Shown here: in pieces, positions 2,403 to 11,016 of the stretch
How the letters are laid out: every line of letters begins with the position of its first letter
Numbering within the stretch: position 1 is the stretch's first letter
Assembly (NCBI GenBank): GCA_031253545.1
Contig: JAIRWH010000003.1
Span: forward strand, 1-37,375
Length of the DNA: 37,375 nt
Direction: 5' to 3'
Source: Oscillospiraceae bacterium
GTDB lineage: Bacteria > Bacillota > Clostridia > Oscillospirales > UBA929
Program-made: the position numbers and the translations under genes
Notes under the pieces: model-generated
What the model was told of the DNA's origin: nothing
Seen by the model: the letters and a program-made list of their open reading frames with translations, nothing else
Database searches by the model: none

Positions 2403-3590
2403 CTATTCGCCGGGCGGCGCTTCCTCCCCGGCGGGGTAATCCGCCTCGCAGGGCGGGTACTTTGTGCTGTCCCAGCGGTAGAGCGCCGCGCGCATGGTCT
2501 CGTCCGCGCTCAGGAAATACTCGTGCGCGGTCTCCTCGCCGTAGTCGTTCATGGCGGCGTCCACATGGTACCACCGCCCGTCTATGCTGACGATATTCCA
2601 AGCGTGGCCCTCGGAGGCCCTCTCGCCGTAAACCACCTCGGCGGTTATGCCGGCGTTGTCGCAGAGCGCCTTATAGGCGAGCGCGTAACCCTCGCCCACA
2701 GCCTTTTTATCCGCGAAGGAGGCGATATTATACGGCCTGCCGCGCCCGGAGCCGCGCAGCGCGTCGTAGGCGGCGGTGTCGTGGTCGTAGGAAAGCAGTT
2801 CGCACAGCGCGTCGTGCAGCGTGAGCGCGTTGCCCGCGTCGCTTTCGGTAAGCGTAAGCCCGTCGCAAAACTCGCGGAAGATTTGCTCCACATATTGTTG
2901 CAGCCTTGTCAGCACCGCGGCGGAATATTCGTAGGCGAAACGAAATTCCAATATACGGCTCTGGCTCTTATCCGCCTTATAGAAGGTTATGTCGTAGGCG
3001 GGGAAACCCAGCGCGTAGAGCGGCTCCTGCGTGTAAAGCTGCGCTATGAGGCCGTCCGGGTCGAAGGACTCCTCATAAAACGGCATTTCCACGGCAAGAT
3101 ACGGCGCGTATGAGTGCATGGCCTCGCGCAGTTTGCGGCGGAGCACTTCCCTGCCGCCCGCCTCCGTGAGCGTGTCTGTCTCGGACTGCGGCCTGTCGCG
3201 CATATACTTTATGGAAAGGTTTATAGCGGGGCCTTTCGAGTCCGAGGCGGATTCGTAGAGTATATACGCGCCCACATAGTAGCCGTATGGGTCGTTGTAC
3301 ATCACCTCGGATATGGCCGTCACAATATCCTCGCCCGCGTTTGAGTCGTAGGACGTAAACCTCAGCAGCCCGCCGCTCAGCCCGCCGCGCACCCAACGCT
3401 TCACAACCTGCACGAGCATATTGTATGAGGTCACTTCCTGCCCCGACGTGTCCGCCGTGTAGTTCGGCTCCAAATGCGGCGCGCTTTCCCTGTACGCGCG
3501 GTTGAGCATGGCAGAGCAGCCGCACAGCAACAACAGCGGCAACACAAGCGCGCAAAGCGACCCCGCGGCGCGGCGACCCACGTTTATCAC
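2403..3590 (-). CDS. Lipoprotein with transglutaminase-like domain lacking the catalytic Cys
   Basis: A 395-residue exported protein. Residues 1-24 are a lipoprotein signal peptide (basic RR, Leu-rich core, then LLCG before C25), so the mature protein should be lipidated and anchored outside the membrane. The C-terminal third has the transglutaminase-core pattern: a helix around LHDALCELLSYDHD (258-271), KKAVGEGYALAYKALC (295-310), EGHAWNIV with H329 and WYHVDAAM with D344. In active members the first motif reads AVCxGYA; here residue 299 is Gly (codon GGC at 2696-2694, one base from TGC). His and Asp of the triad remain. The ancestral role would be cell-wall or peptide processing; without Cys it is probably a binding or structural protein. 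GTG start at 3590 with AGGAAGGG just upstream. Confidence 0.8.
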   Translation of the reverse strand: MINVGRRAAGSLCALVLPLLLLCGCSAMLNRAYRESAPHLEPNYTADTSGQEVTSYNMLVQVVKRWVRGGLSGGLLRFTSYDSNAGEDIVTAISEVMYNDPYGYYVGAYILYESASDSKGPAINLSIKYMRDRPQSETDTLTEAGGREVLRRKLREAMHSYAPYLAVEMPFYEESFDPDGLIAQLYTQEPLYALGFPAYDITFYKADKSQSRILEFRFAYEYSAAVLTRLQQYVEQIFREFCDGLTLTESDAGNALTLHDALCELLSYDHDTAAYDALRGSGRGRPYNIASFADKKAVGEGYALAYKALCDNAGITAEVVYGERASEGHAWNIVSIDGRWYHVDAAMNDYGEETAHEYFLSADETMRAALYRWDSTKYPPCEADYPAGEEAPPGE

Positions 3591-3680
3591 GCCCTTCCTC
3601 GCGCGAATATCATACCATTTGCCGGGGCAAAAACCGCGCCAAGCGCTCCTTCCGCGCCGGAAAAAAGGGGTATCCTTTGT

Positions 3681-3772
3681 TGGCGGAGATGGAGAGATTC
3701 GAACTCTCGAGGCGTTTTTGACGCCTACACGATTTCCAGTCGTGCGCCCTCGACCATCTAGGCGACATCTCC
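3681..3772 (-). tRNA. tRNA-Ser(GGA)
   Basis: The minus strand folds as a type II tRNA. The acceptor arm GGAGATG pairs with CATCTCC, the discriminator base is G, and CCA is encoded. The anticodon stem CACGA/TCGTG encloses a loop with GGA, there is a long variable arm (GGCGTC AAAAA CGCC), and the T-arm reads GAGTTCGAATCTC. The 92-nt length and long variable arm agree with serine identity. Confidence 0.95.
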
Positions 3773-3782
3773 ATGCCGTATT

Positions 3783-3811
3783 ATTCTAACCCCGCTTGGC
3801 GAATTTGTCAA
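3783..3811 (-). promoter_or_regulatory. Promoter of tRNA-Ser
   Basis: TTGACA (3811-3806), 17 bases and TAGAAT (3788-3783) on the minus strand, ending 11 nt before the tRNA 5' end and beginning 11 nt after the stop of the upstream membrane-protein gene. Confidence 0.75.
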
Positions 3812-3821
3812 CCGCCCGCCG

Positions 3822-6254
3822 TTATTCAAGCCCTTCCGCCTCGCCGTCAAACGCCCGCGCGGAGCGCGAAAGCGAGGAGCTTTGCCCGGCATACAGGCGG
3901 GAAATGGCAAGGCAGATGCCCGCGCCCACGAGCAGCGCGGCGATGCGTATGAGCGAGTGCGCCGTCCATACGTCTACCACGGAGGCTTTGAGCGAAGCCG
4001 CGATGACCATGACTAACCCCGATATACGCGCGGAATTGCGCTTATGGGCAAAGCCGTACAGCACGGAGGCGAACCCCACGGCGACGACCACAATACTGGG
4101 GATGACGCTCGCCTCCGGGGGAGCGAGGTATTGCAGCCAGACGAAGAGCTGCAGGCAGATAAACCACAGCACAATGACGCTGCTGTATTTATTCCATTCA
4201 ACATGGACAAAACGGTGGAAGAGCGCGGCGGCCAACAGGAGAGTGCCGATAAAGGCGAACCATTGGACGGTGCGGAACGCGGGCGGCATGAGGGAAACAT
4301 CGCCGCGCGCGAGCGCGCGCAGCAGCTCCACGCCCTGCAGCTCCGCCGCGCGGAAACCCGCTATGACCACGGCGAATATCCGCACCGATTCCGTGAAGGC
4401 GCAGAGCAGGAACAGGAGGGCGCGGTAGACTATGCCGGAAACCTTTTTGCCGCTCAGCAGCGCAAGGTAGACGGCGAGCGCGATTCCCATGAGCATGGAG
4501 GAGAGTATTGTGCCGAAGCCGCCGTCCATGCGCGGCGCGAGCGACGCGCCCGCGCAGATGAGCAGCACGGCGGCGGACAGGCGCGAGCAGACCTTATGGG
4601 CGAATCCGGCATCCGCCGCCACGAAGCGCACGGCGAGCACATACGCCGCGAGGGCGAGCGCGGCAAAATTGATGATATTCACAAAATACGGTTCTCCCGC
4701 GAATAGCGCGCTGCCGTGGCAGGACAGACCCAACAAAAGCGCGGCGAATGTGCCGATATAGGCGGCGGCGCGCCGCAGGGCGATACCGGGCAGCGAGTTT
4801 AAGCGCCCCACGCAAAGATACAGCAGCACGGCGAGGGCGGCGAGGGAGGGGCTGTACCACAGCGCTTGCGGCAATGTGAGAAACGAAAAGCGGCATACCG
4901 TGAACAGGCCGAGCGCGGCGGGCAGGTAGCAGGGTCGCAGATAGGCGAACGCGAAGGCTGCCGCAATGAGAAGCGAAGAGTATACGTCAATCGGCGAGGG
5001 CTTTATGCCGTCCGCGATTGCGGAGGTTACGCCGAGGTTGCCGAGCATGAAGCCCGTCATGGCAAGGGTGTTTACGGTGTATATGATGTTGCCCGTGACG
5101 GGCATGGCTTTTGCCGCGAGCAGCAGGCCCGCCGCCGAGAGCGGTATGAGCGCCGCCGCCGCGTACGGCGTGGCAAGGACGGGCAGCGCGGGGTCGGGGA
5201 AATAGAGCAGCAGCGCCGTTACGGCGCAGGCCGAAAGAGAGCAGTAAATGTACAGGGGCACGATATATTTGCCGCCGCGCCGTGAATATTCCGAGAGCGT
5301 GAGCGCGAGAAACACGCAGGCAACGGCCGCCGTGACGGGTCCGAGACCGCCTGTCCGCGACAGCACGGCGCAGCCCGCGATAACGCCGACTGTGCCCGTG
5401 AGGCACGGGACGGCGAACCCGCAAAAGCGCATGAGTATGAACGCGCCGCACAGCCAGAGGGCGAACAGCAGGTTCGCCGCGACAAACGGATACAGATACA
5501 TGAACGTGTAGCCCGCGGTGAACGTCACGAACACCACGGCAAGCCCCGCGGAAAGAAATATATTGCGTATGACGGTATATTTGAGGAAACCCGGCAGCCA
5601 CGCGGCGCGGACGAGCGCCGCCGCAATGAGCGCGCCGCCGAAGAGGAGGAGCAGGGCAAAGCGCGCCGCGTCGGGCAGGTTGCCCCAGGCAAACACCGCC
5701 GCCGCGAGGGCGGCCGCCGTGATGAGTATGCCCGCGAGCACGGCGACGATGTGCTGCCCCACGAAGTTTTCCGCTCTGCCCGACCCGGTTTTGGGCGGGC
5801 GGGGGGCGCGTTGCGGCCGGCGGTAGGCTTGCGGTTGCGGCGGGCGGGGGGCGTAATACTGCGGCGCGTACGGCGGGGGGTATTGGCCGGGTGCCGGCTG
5901 CGGGGGCGGGGGGTATTGGCCGGGTGCCGGCGCCTGATTGGCGCATAAAAGCCGCACGCCGTTTTCCTCAAGGATTCGCAGGTACATATCGCGGGCGACG
6001 GGGGTCTCCGCCAGCACGGTGTCTTCCAGCGTGATAACGCAGTCGAACATCCTGTACGCGGCATCGGCGAGCATTTTCTTGAAAAGGGGGCGCGCATCCG
6101 GCGGCAGGTCGTTGTCGTCAACGTAGTAGCCCAACAAGACCATGCCGCTGCGTTCGGCGTAAGCGCGACATTCCTCGGCCTGCCTTCTGATATATTCGGC
6201 CGCGGCCGCGCCGGTGAGCGCCGTGGCGCGTCGCGCGTAGATTACGGCTCGCAT
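3822..6254 (-). CDS. Degenerate serine-recombinase domain fused to a DUF2339-like polytopic membrane protein
   Basis: One uninterrupted 810-residue frame with three parts. Residues 1-107 follow the serine-recombinase catalytic domain: MRAVIYAR, then AEECRAYAERSGMVLLGYYVDD, RPLFKKMLADA, FDCVITLED and ILEENGVRLLCAN. The nucleophile position (S in YARxS) is Ala10, and the Arg of the LDRxxR motif is lost (LEDTVLAE, 76-83), so strand cleavage is not expected. Residues 108-160 are a Pro/Tyr/Gln-rich linker with APGQYPPP twice. From about 165 to 785 there are some 18-20 hydrophobic segments; the end (RISGLVMVIAASLKASVVD, then IRIAALLVGAGICLAISRLY) matches the conserved tail of DUF2339 proteins. The soluble domain should be cytoplasmic. 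The ATG at 6254 has AAAGGTGG upstream. No DNA-binding or zinc-ribbon recombinase part is present. Function unknown. Confidence 0.75.
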   Translation of the reverse strand: MRAVIYARRATALTGAAAAEYIRRQAEECRAYAERSGMVLLGYYVDDNDLPPDARPLFKKMLADAAYRMFDCVITLEDTVLAETPVARDMYLRILEENGVRLLCANQAPAPGQYPPPPQPAPGQYPPPYAPQYYAPRPPQPQAYRRPQRAPRPPKTGSGRAENFVGQHIVAVLAGILITAAALAAAVFAWGNLPDAARFALLLLFGGALIAAALVRAAWLPGFLKYTVIRNIFLSAGLAVVFVTFTAGYTFMYLYPFVAANLLFALWLCGAFILMRFCGFAVPCLTGTVGVIAGCAVLSRTGGLGPVTAAVACVFLALTLSEYSRRGGKYIVPLYIYCSLSACAVTALLLYFPDPALPVLATPYAAAALIPLSAAGLLLAAKAMPVTGNIIYTVNTLAMTGFMLGNLGVTSAIADGIKPSPIDVYSSLLIAAAFAFAYLRPCYLPAALGLFTVCRFSFLTLPQALWYSPSLAALAVLLYLCVGRLNSLPGIALRRAAAYIGTFAALLLGLSCHGSALFAGEPYFVNIINFAALALAAYVLAVRFVAADAGFAHKVCSRLSAAVLLICAGASLAPRMDGGFGTILSSMLMGIALAVYLALLSGKKVSGIVYRALLFLLCAFTESVRIFAVVIAGFRAAELQGVELLRALARGDVSLMPPAFRTVQWFAFIGTLLLAAALFHRFVHVEWNKYSSVIVLWFICLQLFVWLQYLAPPEASVIPSIVVVAVGFASVLYGFAHKRNSARISGLVMVIAASLKASVVDVWTAHSLIRIAALLVGAGICLAISRLYAGQSSSLSRSARAFDGEAEGLE

Positions 6255-6312
6255 AGCGTGTAGTCGCCACCTTTCGGGAACGGCATAGCGGAGGAAGGAC
6301 GGTTACGGTAAA

Positions 6313-6341
6313 AGCATAGCACATCGCCGCCGGGGTGTCAA
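6313..6341 (-). promoter_or_regulatory. Promoter of the recombinase-like/membrane fusion gene
   Basis: TTGACA (6341-6336), 17 bases, TATGCT (6318-6313) on the minus strand; the predicted leader is about 50 nt. The fusion gene therefore has its own promoter, separate from the DsbA-like gene upstream. Confidence 0.7.
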
Positions 6342-6397: not shown

Positions 6398-6904
6398 TTA
6401 GCGGCACTCGCGCAAAAACGCTTCCAACTGCCCTCTCGTGACCCCTATCCCCGCCACGGAGTCCAAACGCTTTTGCCCGCAGACGAACGCCGGCACGGCC
6501 CACACCTTCATCGGCCCGTAGGCGTAGTCGTTCGCCTCCTGCAGCTCGCTTTCATATTCGCCGCCCCGCAGCGCCGCCGCGAAACGCTCCGCGCTCTCGC
6601 CGCACTCGGCCGCGCAGGCGGCGAGCGTTTCCACATCGTCCGGCGGCAGCCTGCGCTCGAAATACGCCTTGAAGACGCTGCGGTTATACTCTTCCTCTTT
6701 CCCCGCCTCGCGCATATACAAAGCTCCGCGCACGGCAAGGTCGGCGTAGGGCTTATGCTCCGGCTCCTCAACCTTCGGGTGCGCCTCCACGGGCCGCCAC
6801 ACAATCTCCGCCGAGGGAAAGCGCGGCAGCAGGCTTTCCAATTCGGCTAGCCCCCTGTAACAGTACGGGCAGGTGTGGTCGAAAAACACTTCAATCTTCG
6901 GCAT
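6398..6904 (-). CDS. DsbA-family thioredoxin-fold oxidoreductase
   Basis: A 168-residue protein with a thioredoxin-fold start (KIEVFFDHTCPYCYRGL) holding the redox motif C12-P-Y-C15, an inserted helical domain (about 60-125), and a cis-Pro loop VWAVPAFVCGQKRL near 138-151, as in the FrnE/DsbA-like group. No signal peptide is present, so it is probably cytoplasmic, in line with FrnE-type disulfide isomerases or 2-hydroxychromene-isomerase-like relatives rather than an exported DsbA. An additional Cys lies in the cis-Pro loop. AAGGAGG stands 7 nt before the ATG. It has its own promoter and is divergent from nnrD. The substrate cannot be deduced. Confidence 0.85.
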   Translation of the reverse strand: MPKIEVFFDHTCPYCYRGLAELESLLPRFPSAEIVWRPVEAHPKVEEPEHKPYADLAVRGALYMREAGKEEEYNRSVFKAYFERRLPPDDVETLAACAAECGESAERFAAALRGGEYESELQEANDYAYGPMKVWAVPAFVCGQKRLDSVAGIGVTRGQLEAFLRECR

Positions 6905-8806: not shown

Positions 8807-9298
8807 GTGGCGGGAGAACGTATCAACGCGGGCGAGAATATTGACGGGATAATAGACAGACATTCGGGTTTGGTTTATCGCCTCGCGCTCGCGCGCACGG
8901 GCTCCGCGCACGACGCGGAAGACGTGTATCAAGACGTGTTCCTCGCGCTTATCTCAAAGCCGCGCGTATTCAACGACGACGAGCACCTCAAGGCATGGCT
9001 TATCCGCGTGACCGTCAACCGCTGCCGTTCCCTGCTCTCGTCGGCGTGGCGGCGCAAGACCCAACCGCTCACAGACGATATACCCTACCAAACGCGCGAG
9101 CAAAGCGACCTGCTTGAGTACCTGAGCCCGCTTCCCCCCAAATACCGCGCGGTTATCCATCTCTTTTACGGCGAGGAACTGAGCGTGGAGCAAATCGGCC
9201 GAGTGCTGCACGCGAAGCCCTCCACGGTACGCGCGTGGCTCACCCGCGCGCGGGCTATGCTCAAAGAAAAATTGAAGGAGGATTATTTCAATGGCTGA
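8807..9298 (+). CDS. ECF-type RNA polymerase sigma factor
   Basis: A 163-residue sigma-70 family protein with only regions 2 and 4, as in extracytoplasmic-function sigmas. Region 2 includes RHSGLVYRLALARTG and DAEDVYQDVFLALI with WLIRVTVNRC at its end (about residues 17-75). Region 4 is YLSPLPPKYRAVIHLFYGEE followed by the helix-turn-helix SVEQIGRVLHAKPSTVRAWLTRAR (about 105-150). GTG at 8807 is chosen because GGAGGGGG lies 8 nt upstream; TTG at 8804 is directly in front and also possible. The last 8 nt overlap the next gene, a membrane-anchored protein of the expected anti-sigma type, so the two are probably translated together. Regulon unknown. Confidence 0.9.
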   Translation: MAGERINAGENIDGIIDRHSGLVYRLALARTGSAHDAEDVYQDVFLALISKPRVFNDDEHLKAWLIRVTVNRCRSLLSSAWRRKTQPLTDDIPYQTREQSDLLEYLSPLPPKYRAVIHLFYGEELSVEQIGRVLHAKPSTVRAWLTRARAMLKEKLKEDYFNG

Positions 9299-9995
9299 GA
9301 ACCACTACAAGCGCGTTATGGGGCAAATCACCCCAAGCGCCGCCCTGGTGCGGCGCGTGAAGGCCGCCTCGCGCGCGCGGCTTTACTCCCCGCGTCATAA
9401 CCCGCAACGCGCGTTCGCCTGCGGCCTTGCCGCCGCCCTGGTGCTCACCTTGGGCGTGTCCGCCCTCGCCGCCGCGCAGGGCGGCCTCAAACTCAACACC
9501 GCCAAAGTCGTCGAAGACGGGCAATACGCCGCCCGCAATTTCGACACGGGCGCGCTCGCGCAATACTCTTTGGAGTTTTCCCGTTTCAGCGAGGTTGCCG
9601 GCTATTTCATCATACCCATAGGCAACGAGTATACGCGCGAAGCCGGGCCGGGGGCGCTGCAATACTACCCGGACACGGAAACCGCGCGTATCCTCTGCGG
9701 TTTTGACCTTGCCGCCTGCCGCGCCGAGGCGGAGATATGGGTGCCGCTCGCGCCCGATTACCTCTGGAGCGTGGCGTATGCCGACTACCATGCCGCCCCG
9801 GAGGACATGAGGTTTATTTACGAGGATTCCGATAGCGGCATTACCGCCCGCGCCGTCATAAGCAACCCCGCCCCGGAATGGGTCATGGACTTGCGGTTTG
9901 TATACGGCGGGGTGTATTACATCTTCAAGGTCGGCGGCTCGGAGGGCGGCGTTAGCCCGCGGGAAGCCGCCGCGCTGCTCACGGGCGCTTTCTGA
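9291..9995 (+). CDS. Single-pass membrane protein, probable anti-sigma factor
   Basis: A 234-residue protein that starts inside the sigma gene (8-nt overlap). Residues 1-45 are basic and soluble, with SAALVRRVKAASRARLY recalling the short sigma-binding helices of Firmicutes anti-sigmas. One transmembrane helix follows (about 46-66: FACGLAAALVLTLGVSALAA). The remaining 165 residues would be outside the cell and are rich in Tyr and acidic residues, with no recognised enzyme motif. The order sigma gene then overlapping one-pass membrane protein is the standard arrangement for a sigma/anti-sigma pair; that role is inferred from position and topology, not from a recognised zinc-binding HxxxCxxC motif, which is absent. 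The outer domain may sense an envelope signal. Confidence 0.65.
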   Translation: MAENHYKRVMGQITPSAALVRRVKAASRARLYSPRHNPQRAFACGLAAALVLTLGVSALAAAQGGLKLNTAKVVEDGQYAARNFDTGALAQYSLEFSRFSEVAGYFIIPIGNEYTREAGPGALQYYPDTETARILCGFDLAACRAEAEIWVPLAPDYLWSVAYADYHAAPEDMRFIYEDSDSGITARAVISNPAPEWVMDLRFVYGGVYYIFKVGGSEGGVSPREAAALLTGAF

Positions 9996-10058
9996 GCGCG
10001 CCGCAGGCGGGTGGCGTTTCGGGGGGCGGGGGCGAACCTTCCGCTCCCCCGGCATATC

Positions 10059-10395: not shown

Positions 10396-11016
10396 TTACT
10401 CGCCCGTGAGGAACTCGTTTGCCCAGTCGTCAAACGCGTGCATCACGGCGTCGTAGGTCTGCTTCGTCACGTCCGGCAGGTACTCGTAACCGCCGAACAT
10501 ACGCGCCACTTCGTCGAAGCCCTGTTTCGCGCCCGCGCGCAGGTCGCTGACGGTCTGCGCGTCGTAATCGTTGCCCGCCAAGGCGCGGGCGAAGTCCAAG
10601 ATACGCGCCGTGGTTTGCCTAACACCGTAGTAGCCGTCTTCGCCAATCATGGCGGCGGCTTCCTCGCGTAACTCAGGGTCAATTTCCGGGTTCTCGGCTC
10701 TGCGCGCCCATGTAATCTGCCCCGTGTCCTCCACGGCACCCAGCCCGAAACGGCTTTCCACCTTTCCGCCCGTAATCAGGGCGAGCACAATATTGCGCAA
10801 GGTTTCCGTGGCCGCCAGCGCCTCGTCCCACAGTTTCTGCACGGTGGCGGCGCCGTCTTTGGAATAGATGCCGCCCACGCCGCTCTCCGGCAAATGCGTG
10901 TAGGTGTCCGCCGCGCGCGCGGCGGGGGAGCTTTCCGCCCCCGCGGGCTTAGTCTGCGTTGCGGGCGGCAACACCGAAGCGCCGCCAACCGCGCCTACGT
11001 TGGGTATGTCCGACAT
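10396..11016 (-). CDS. DUF5610-like protein of unknown function
   Basis: A 206-residue soluble protein without signal peptide or membrane segment. The first 45 residues are low-complexity (Ala, Gly, Pro, Thr). The C-terminal part has IGEDGYYGVRQTTARILDFA near residues 125-144 and a helical end (DLRAGAKQGFDEVARMFGG, then DVTKQTYDAVMHAFDDW). This pattern recalls DUF5610-type proteins, in which an EDGxxGVxQTxxRIxDFA segment is typical; the match is from memory and not certain. AAGGAGG is 9 nt before the ATG. Its role is not known. It is the only gene on its transcript here. Confidence 0.6.
   Translation of the reverse strand: MSDIPNVGAVGGASVLPPATQTKPAGAESSPAARAADTYTHLPESGVGGIYSKDGAATVQKLWDEALAATETLRNIVLALITGGKVESRFGLGAVEDTGQITWARRAENPEIDPELREEAAAMIGEDGYYGVRQTTARILDFARALAGNDYDAQTVSDLRAGAKQGFDEVARMFGGYEYLPDVTKQTYDAVMHAFDDWANEFLTGE

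Follow-up and report, generated by a model that had tools for sequence, protein, structure and literature searches.

Large serine recombinases (LSRs) possess a catalytic domain (Pfam PF00239), exemplified by TP901-1 integrase (3bvp) and by proteins of C. difficile (3g13) and S. pneumoniae (3guv), and owe most of their hold on DNA to helix E, recombinase domain and zinc ribbon. Dead enzymes are often reused as binding domains, and a search of open-access text found no serine-recombinase core reused outside DNA recombination, or on a polytopic membrane protein. The transposase TnpA of the IS607 family (core structure 6dgc) is active, has a winged-helix domain for DNA binding at its N-terminus, and also contains a helix E region. 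In small serine recombinases helix E carries the dimer interface, and the cores of IS607 TnpA pair via helices B and D (PMC6188088). DUF2339 proteins (PF10101) are represented by Arc3A of P. aeruginosa (PA5114), which limits lysophospholipid accumulation under phospholipase attack and for which divergent members of the family are able to substitute (PMC8926400).

The gene considered here, at 3822..6254 on the minus strand of the stretch of DNA analyzed (the window, 37,375 nucleotides of a gut-type Clostridia genome), brings two of these systems together, encoding a dead LSR catalytic core, a Pro-rich linker and a DUF2339-type polytopic membrane protein. Like the LSRs, its product has the MRAVIYAR N-terminus, the same fold and a like order of elements up to beta-4, with about 30–38% identity over 107 residues. 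Unlike them, it carries Ala in place of Ser10, has lost the arginines of the LDRxxR motif, is devoid of helix E, recombinase domain, zinc ribbon and coiled coil, and has a membrane protein attached. The TnpA core is the best PDB fold match of its N-terminal domain (TM 0.85), but of TnpA's winged helix and helix E region it has neither. With DUF2339/Arc3A it shares the Pro-rich linker, a TM1 that starts as E..(G)....LA..LI, a large number of TM segments and the C-terminal motif GFA....R..GL....K...D...SL.R...VG..C..S..Y, while it differs in falling below the PF10101 threshold, in having a recombinase core where the anchor and coiled coil would be, and in a very divergent middle. The recruitment of such a core to the membrane, as the original prediction from the bare letters had proposed, is thus borne out to the extent that the dead core and the DUF2339-type protein are joined in one frame.

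A recombinase core that has lost its active site

Residues 1–107 (5934..6254, minus strand) correspond to the serine-recombinase catalytic core, running beta1-alphaA-beta2-alphaB-beta3-alphaD-beta4 and stopping before helix E. In one scan the Pfam Resolvase model PF00239 matched residues 3–107 with E 1.5e-4 and 22.3 bits, against a cut-off of 23.3, and in a six-frame genome search the same residues reached 26.1 bits, above the cut-off. By BLAST, ordinary LSR N-domains in other genomes of the family, class and phylum are 33–38% identical (E 2e-8 to 1.5e-11). A profile built from the LSR domains recovered in this analysis scores the domain at 44.8 bits (E 1.5e-12), and no score among 2,000 shuffled copies is above 4.8. 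Judged at the level of sequence, this score is independent proof of homology to LSRs, and residues 1–107 are on that footing homologous to the LSR catalytic core. NCBIfam, PADLOC and PHROGs added nothing except an integrase match to residues 1–75. A search of solved structures with the lone domain sequence returned nothing useful, and a search by profile succeeded.

The modelled fold agrees. Folded from its single sequence, the domain is predicted with low confidence (pLDDT 54) and in the order beta-alpha-beta-alpha-beta-alpha-beta; integrases and resolvases (phiC31, C. difficile, S. pneumoniae, TP901-1) rank first among its matches, weakly (E >0.01). Folded with an alignment of 34 LSR relatives, with LSRs from viral contigs, it reaches pLDDT 92.7, and serine recombinases take PDB matches 1–42 without exception (best E 1.1e-7, TM 0.85); because an alignment made of LSRs biases the model, this result confirms the fold and is no proof of homology. 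Both the assignment of the first 107 residues to the serine-recombinase catalytic domain and the expectation of a structural match to such enzymes have therefore stood.

The chemistry, on the other hand, is gone. Codon 10 (GCC, Ala; 6225..6227, minus strand) occupies the invariant Ser column (YxRxS) of the LSR alignment, so the predicted replacement of the nucleophile holds. At the position of LDRxxR lie residues 76–83, LEDTVLAE (6006..6029, minus strand), with V80 and E83 in the two invariant Arg columns. Residues 69–87 contain no Arg or Lys, and the LDRxxR arginines are therefore lost under any alignment; one had been reported missing, and in fact both are. R8, Q25, D46 and R55 are retained. 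The PF00239 match stops at beta-4, at profile position 101 of 145, and a Pro-rich linker and TM segments follow where helix E, recombinase domain and zinc ribbon would be expected. Taken together, these features would make DNA cleavage by the domain very unlikely. Thr11, adjoining the lost serine, might be imagined as nucleophile, that or another, of a still active recombinase or nuclease, but two active-site arginines have gone, as has every DNA-binding part, and we find such an activity scarcely credible.

The losses are unevenly spread. The LSRs have 38 hydrophobic columns, and at 33 of these the residue here is hydrophobic too, whereas just 7 of the 22 other strongly conserved columns, the polar ones, are kept. 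This pattern is that of a fold retained after loss of its chemistry, unlike random decay.

A dimerizing role had also been suggested for the domain. With helix E absent, the usual dimer interface cannot form, and canonical dimerization falls away; by analogy with IS607 TnpA, the domain could conceivably pair through a helix B/D interface. That interface (PMC6188088), together with the retained core fold, is also what a dominant-negative protein would use, one that forms hetero-oligomers with an active serine recombinase. However, small serine recombinase dimers use the missing helix E, and a search of the host genome (97% complete) found no second PF00239 gene to supply a partner, making this a very improbable role.

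The membrane protein and its linker

The membrane part, residues 164–790 (3885..5765, minus strand), has about 22 hydrophobic segments and opens with the DUF2339-type motif ENFVGQHIVAVLAGILI. It is polytopic, as had been predicted, but the earlier count of about 19 membrane segments differs from the 22 hydrophobic 19-mers found on the Kyte-Doolittle scale. Residues 698–797 (3864..4163, minus strand) carry the conserved DUF2339 C-terminal motif, GFAHKRNSARISGL...K...D...SLIR...VG.GIC.AIS.LY. The PF10101 model itself gives no match over cut-off to the fusion protein. Over the last 85–97 residues, 36–38% identity is seen to a protein from the same order (genome G196) that does pass PF10101, and a profile of ten DUF2339 relatives matches at both ends, with 14.3 bits (i-Evalue 2e-4) for the linker and the start of TM1 and 55.9 bits for the tail, which upholds the predicted DUF2339-type tail; against 500 locally shuffled membrane parts the best score was 4.0. 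The two matches are collinear, linker first and C-terminal motif second, and in the middle of the membrane part similarity to DUF2339 proteins is not detectable. On these matches the membrane part is best classed as a divergent DUF2339 (Arc3A-type) protein. An Arc3A-like role in handling lysophospholipids may be extended to it by analogy with distant DUF2339 proteins.

Between the two parts lies a Pro/Tyr-rich, basic linker (residues 108–163; 5766..5933, minus strand), much as first described, with 20 Pro, 7 K/R and 1 acidic residue in residues 108–164. It matches the linker of DUF2339 relatives and contains an 11-aa (33-nt) duplication: two identical 27-nt copies, at 5872-5898 and 5905-5931, stand at a spacing of 33 nt, and this perfect direct repeat (window 5872-5931) encodes APGQYPPP twice. 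It is likely a recent in-frame duplication. In all ten profile proteins a Pro-rich linker comes after an N-terminal membrane anchor and a coiled coil. Four further relatives were read in the order: in three the N-terminus is extended at length in this manner or by a coiled coil alone, and in the fourth it is not extended. The linker would on this evidence be ancestral, with the recombinase core standing in for whatever preceded it.

Integrity and distribution of the fusion

The fusion gene is a single uninterrupted reading frame of 810 codons with an ATG start. Upstream lies a promoter-like TTGACA-17-TATGCT with TG ahead of the -10 element (extended -10; 6313..6341, minus strand), where promoter-like sites number 4 against 0.7 expected from shuffles of the region, followed by a Shine-Dalgarno-like sequence, AAAGGTGG (6267..6274, minus strand), with the ATG 12 nt further on. 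This ATG coincides exactly with the LSR gene start (MRAVIYAR, versus MKAVIYAR in relatives). Directly downstream is a tRNA-Ser(GGA) gene (3681..3772, minus strand) with a promoter-like site of its own (3811-3783). A DsbA-like gene (6398-6904) flanks the fusion on one side, and the tRNA-Ser and a transglutaminase-like gene (2403-3590) on the other. Because those neighbors in the window with Pfam matches are mostly ordinary housekeeping or chromosomal genes (glycogen synthesis, MetG, chemotaxis, UvrB, Lgt), the locus does not resemble a mobile element. The fusion protein matches no PADLOC model, and no defence neighborhood surrounds the gene. Two further frames of the window, 9288-10055 and 10396-11016, both on the minus strand, have no Pfam match at E 1e-4 and are putative genes.

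The source assembly is a draft of 96 contigs, the linker holds a tandem duplication of 33 nt, and the join is found in no other genome, all of which would fit an LSR fragment joined to a DUF2339 gene in assembly. Several observations run counter to such a chimera. GC3 is uniform across the gene, at 0.78 in the N-terminal domain and 0.80 in the membrane part (0.78-0.82 for genes elsewhere in the window). Apart from matches of 18–46 bases the linker sequence occurs once in the genome, the assembly holds no other copy of a resolvase domain, and the join falls in front of a linker that itself matches that of DUF2339 proteins. A misjoin would also leave the dead active site unexplained. An artefact is thus argued against by the gene's own promoter, its host-like codon usage and the want of a long second linker copy, as well as by chemistry lost while the hydrophobic core was kept, and we regard it as quite improbable. 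The fusion holds as genuine, then, in one of the genomes searched, and the claims of one frame, of an own promoter, and of a gene that, as far as the sequence shows, is no assembly join of two partial genes are sustained.

The search for a second example was broad. No second fusion was found in the 17 other genomes of the family, nor in 394 genomes of the order, 391 of the class and 399 of the phylum (sets that overlap in part); for the large sets scoring covered just the top two candidates of each genome, and a distant fusion may have escaped. A scan of 84,980 species genomes for close relatives of the full protein, which needs exact 8-residue matches, yielded no confirmed relative. An alignment scan of a species-wide collection with the DUF2339 tail returned ten relatives, and a resolvase domain is missing from them all; there is likewise no fusion among the class-wide PF10101 matches, and a plasmid search gave nothing. 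Every other resolvase-domain match inspected is an ordinary recombinase, a description that covers the family's PF00239 frames of more than 700 residues (G014:C128, G008:C2) as well as a short, odd match (G012:C21). The same domain order, which had been looked for in related Clostridia, is therefore not seen there, every other DUF2339 protein recovered being without a resolvase domain. The worry that this frame might be a lone fusion artefact is answered in part: it is alone among the genomes searched, but the evidence speaks against an artefact of assembly. In another metagenome-assembled genome (L039), a DUF2339 gene (2949-6182) is followed some 3 kb downstream by a recombinase-like frame (9285-10019, plus strand); the two are unfused, and their proximity is possibly due to chance.

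PF00239 is found in 16 of 18 genomes of the family. DUF2339 is absent, at the sensitivity of PF10101, from the family's other 17 genomes, and it is rare in the class (16/341); this absence and rarity suggest that the DUF2339-type gene was gained by transfer. In a same-genus genome the fusion gene is missing beside the DsbA gene, and a GAF/PAS hybrid histidine kinase is found there (L019, 6749-9796, minus strand). The DsbA-like and transglutaminase-like genes, parted here by the fusion gene and tRNA-Ser, adjoin directly in another genome (G012; L021, 6490-8293). This latter difference would fit the fusion gene having been inserted between them, or rearrangements that happened separately.

Possible roles of the recombinase core

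We favor, with moderate confidence, an Arc3A-like membrane protein in which a captured, dead recombinase core has taken the place of the original cap and now acts as a protein-contact or structural module. The N-terminal cap, in the nearest relatives a membrane anchor and coiled coil before the Pro-rich linker, would have been replaced by an LSR catalytic core. With no signal sequence, and with a basic linker before TM1, the core would probably lie on the cytosolic side, where it may serve as a folded contact, oligomerization or structural module instead of the coiled coil, performing no DNA chemistry. The membrane part would then do the work of a DUF2339 protein, plausibly lipid-related, as in P. 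aeruginosa, where this is the limiting of lysophospholipid build-up. Both the cytosolic placement and the cap function are what we infer. Speaking against the swapped cap are its occurrence in one genome only, with no cross-species sign of selection on the N-terminal domain, the undetectable similarity of the middle of the membrane part, and the failure of PF10101 to match the protein.

The main rival, and a real one, is that the core has no role at all: an LSR element may have inserted where a DUF2339 gene begins and left some 107 in-frame codons, folded and tolerated as a neutral scar. LSRs are common in the family, as the PF00239 counts attest, and are known to insert into genes, and the single occurrence of the fusion and its absence beside the DsbA gene in the same-genus genome would fit. 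A roleless remnant sits less well with a hydrophobic core kept while polar and catalytic sites were lost, with a promoter, RBS and start codon now at the recombinase end, or with host-like GC3 and ~35% identity to the nearest LSRs, which imply a long time without loss of frame. We judge the neutral scar possible but rather unlikely.

The remaining proposals give the dead core a ligand. It might bind DNA, RNA, or a nucleotide or other small ligand at the membrane and so control the DUF2339 part, as the retained R8, Q25, D46 and R55 and the 7 K/R to 1 acidic residue of the linker could allow, but loss of the LDRxxR arginines and of helix E, recombinase domain and zinc ribbon makes such a sensor improbable. 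More doubtful still is a full membrane receptor, in which the dead cleft would bind DNA ends, RNA or a nucleotide and gate an Arc3A-like, lipid-protecting protein; were it true, sensing of foreign DNA or damage would be coupled to defence of the envelope.

If selection on the N-terminal domain were confirmed in strains, the swapped cap would stand as an example of recombinase domestication. It would also mark the cap at the N-terminus of DUF2339/Arc3A proteins as a part open to exchange, and this could clarify the organization of a widespread family. The architecture is surprising; as a single occurrence without functional context, it stays a curiosity. As to its origin, most likely the front of the gene is the 5' end of an LSR-bearing element's recombinase gene, left behind before the DUF2339 linker, or the domain was captured in some other way, and the fusion would be old enough for its codon usage to have turned host-like.

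Elsewhere in the family, a 722-aa LSR frame (L076, G008:C2:127000-130500) continues in frame into a segment resembling, by eye, the C-terminus of SpoVT, a layout that looks as if an LSR element lay within a sporulation gene.
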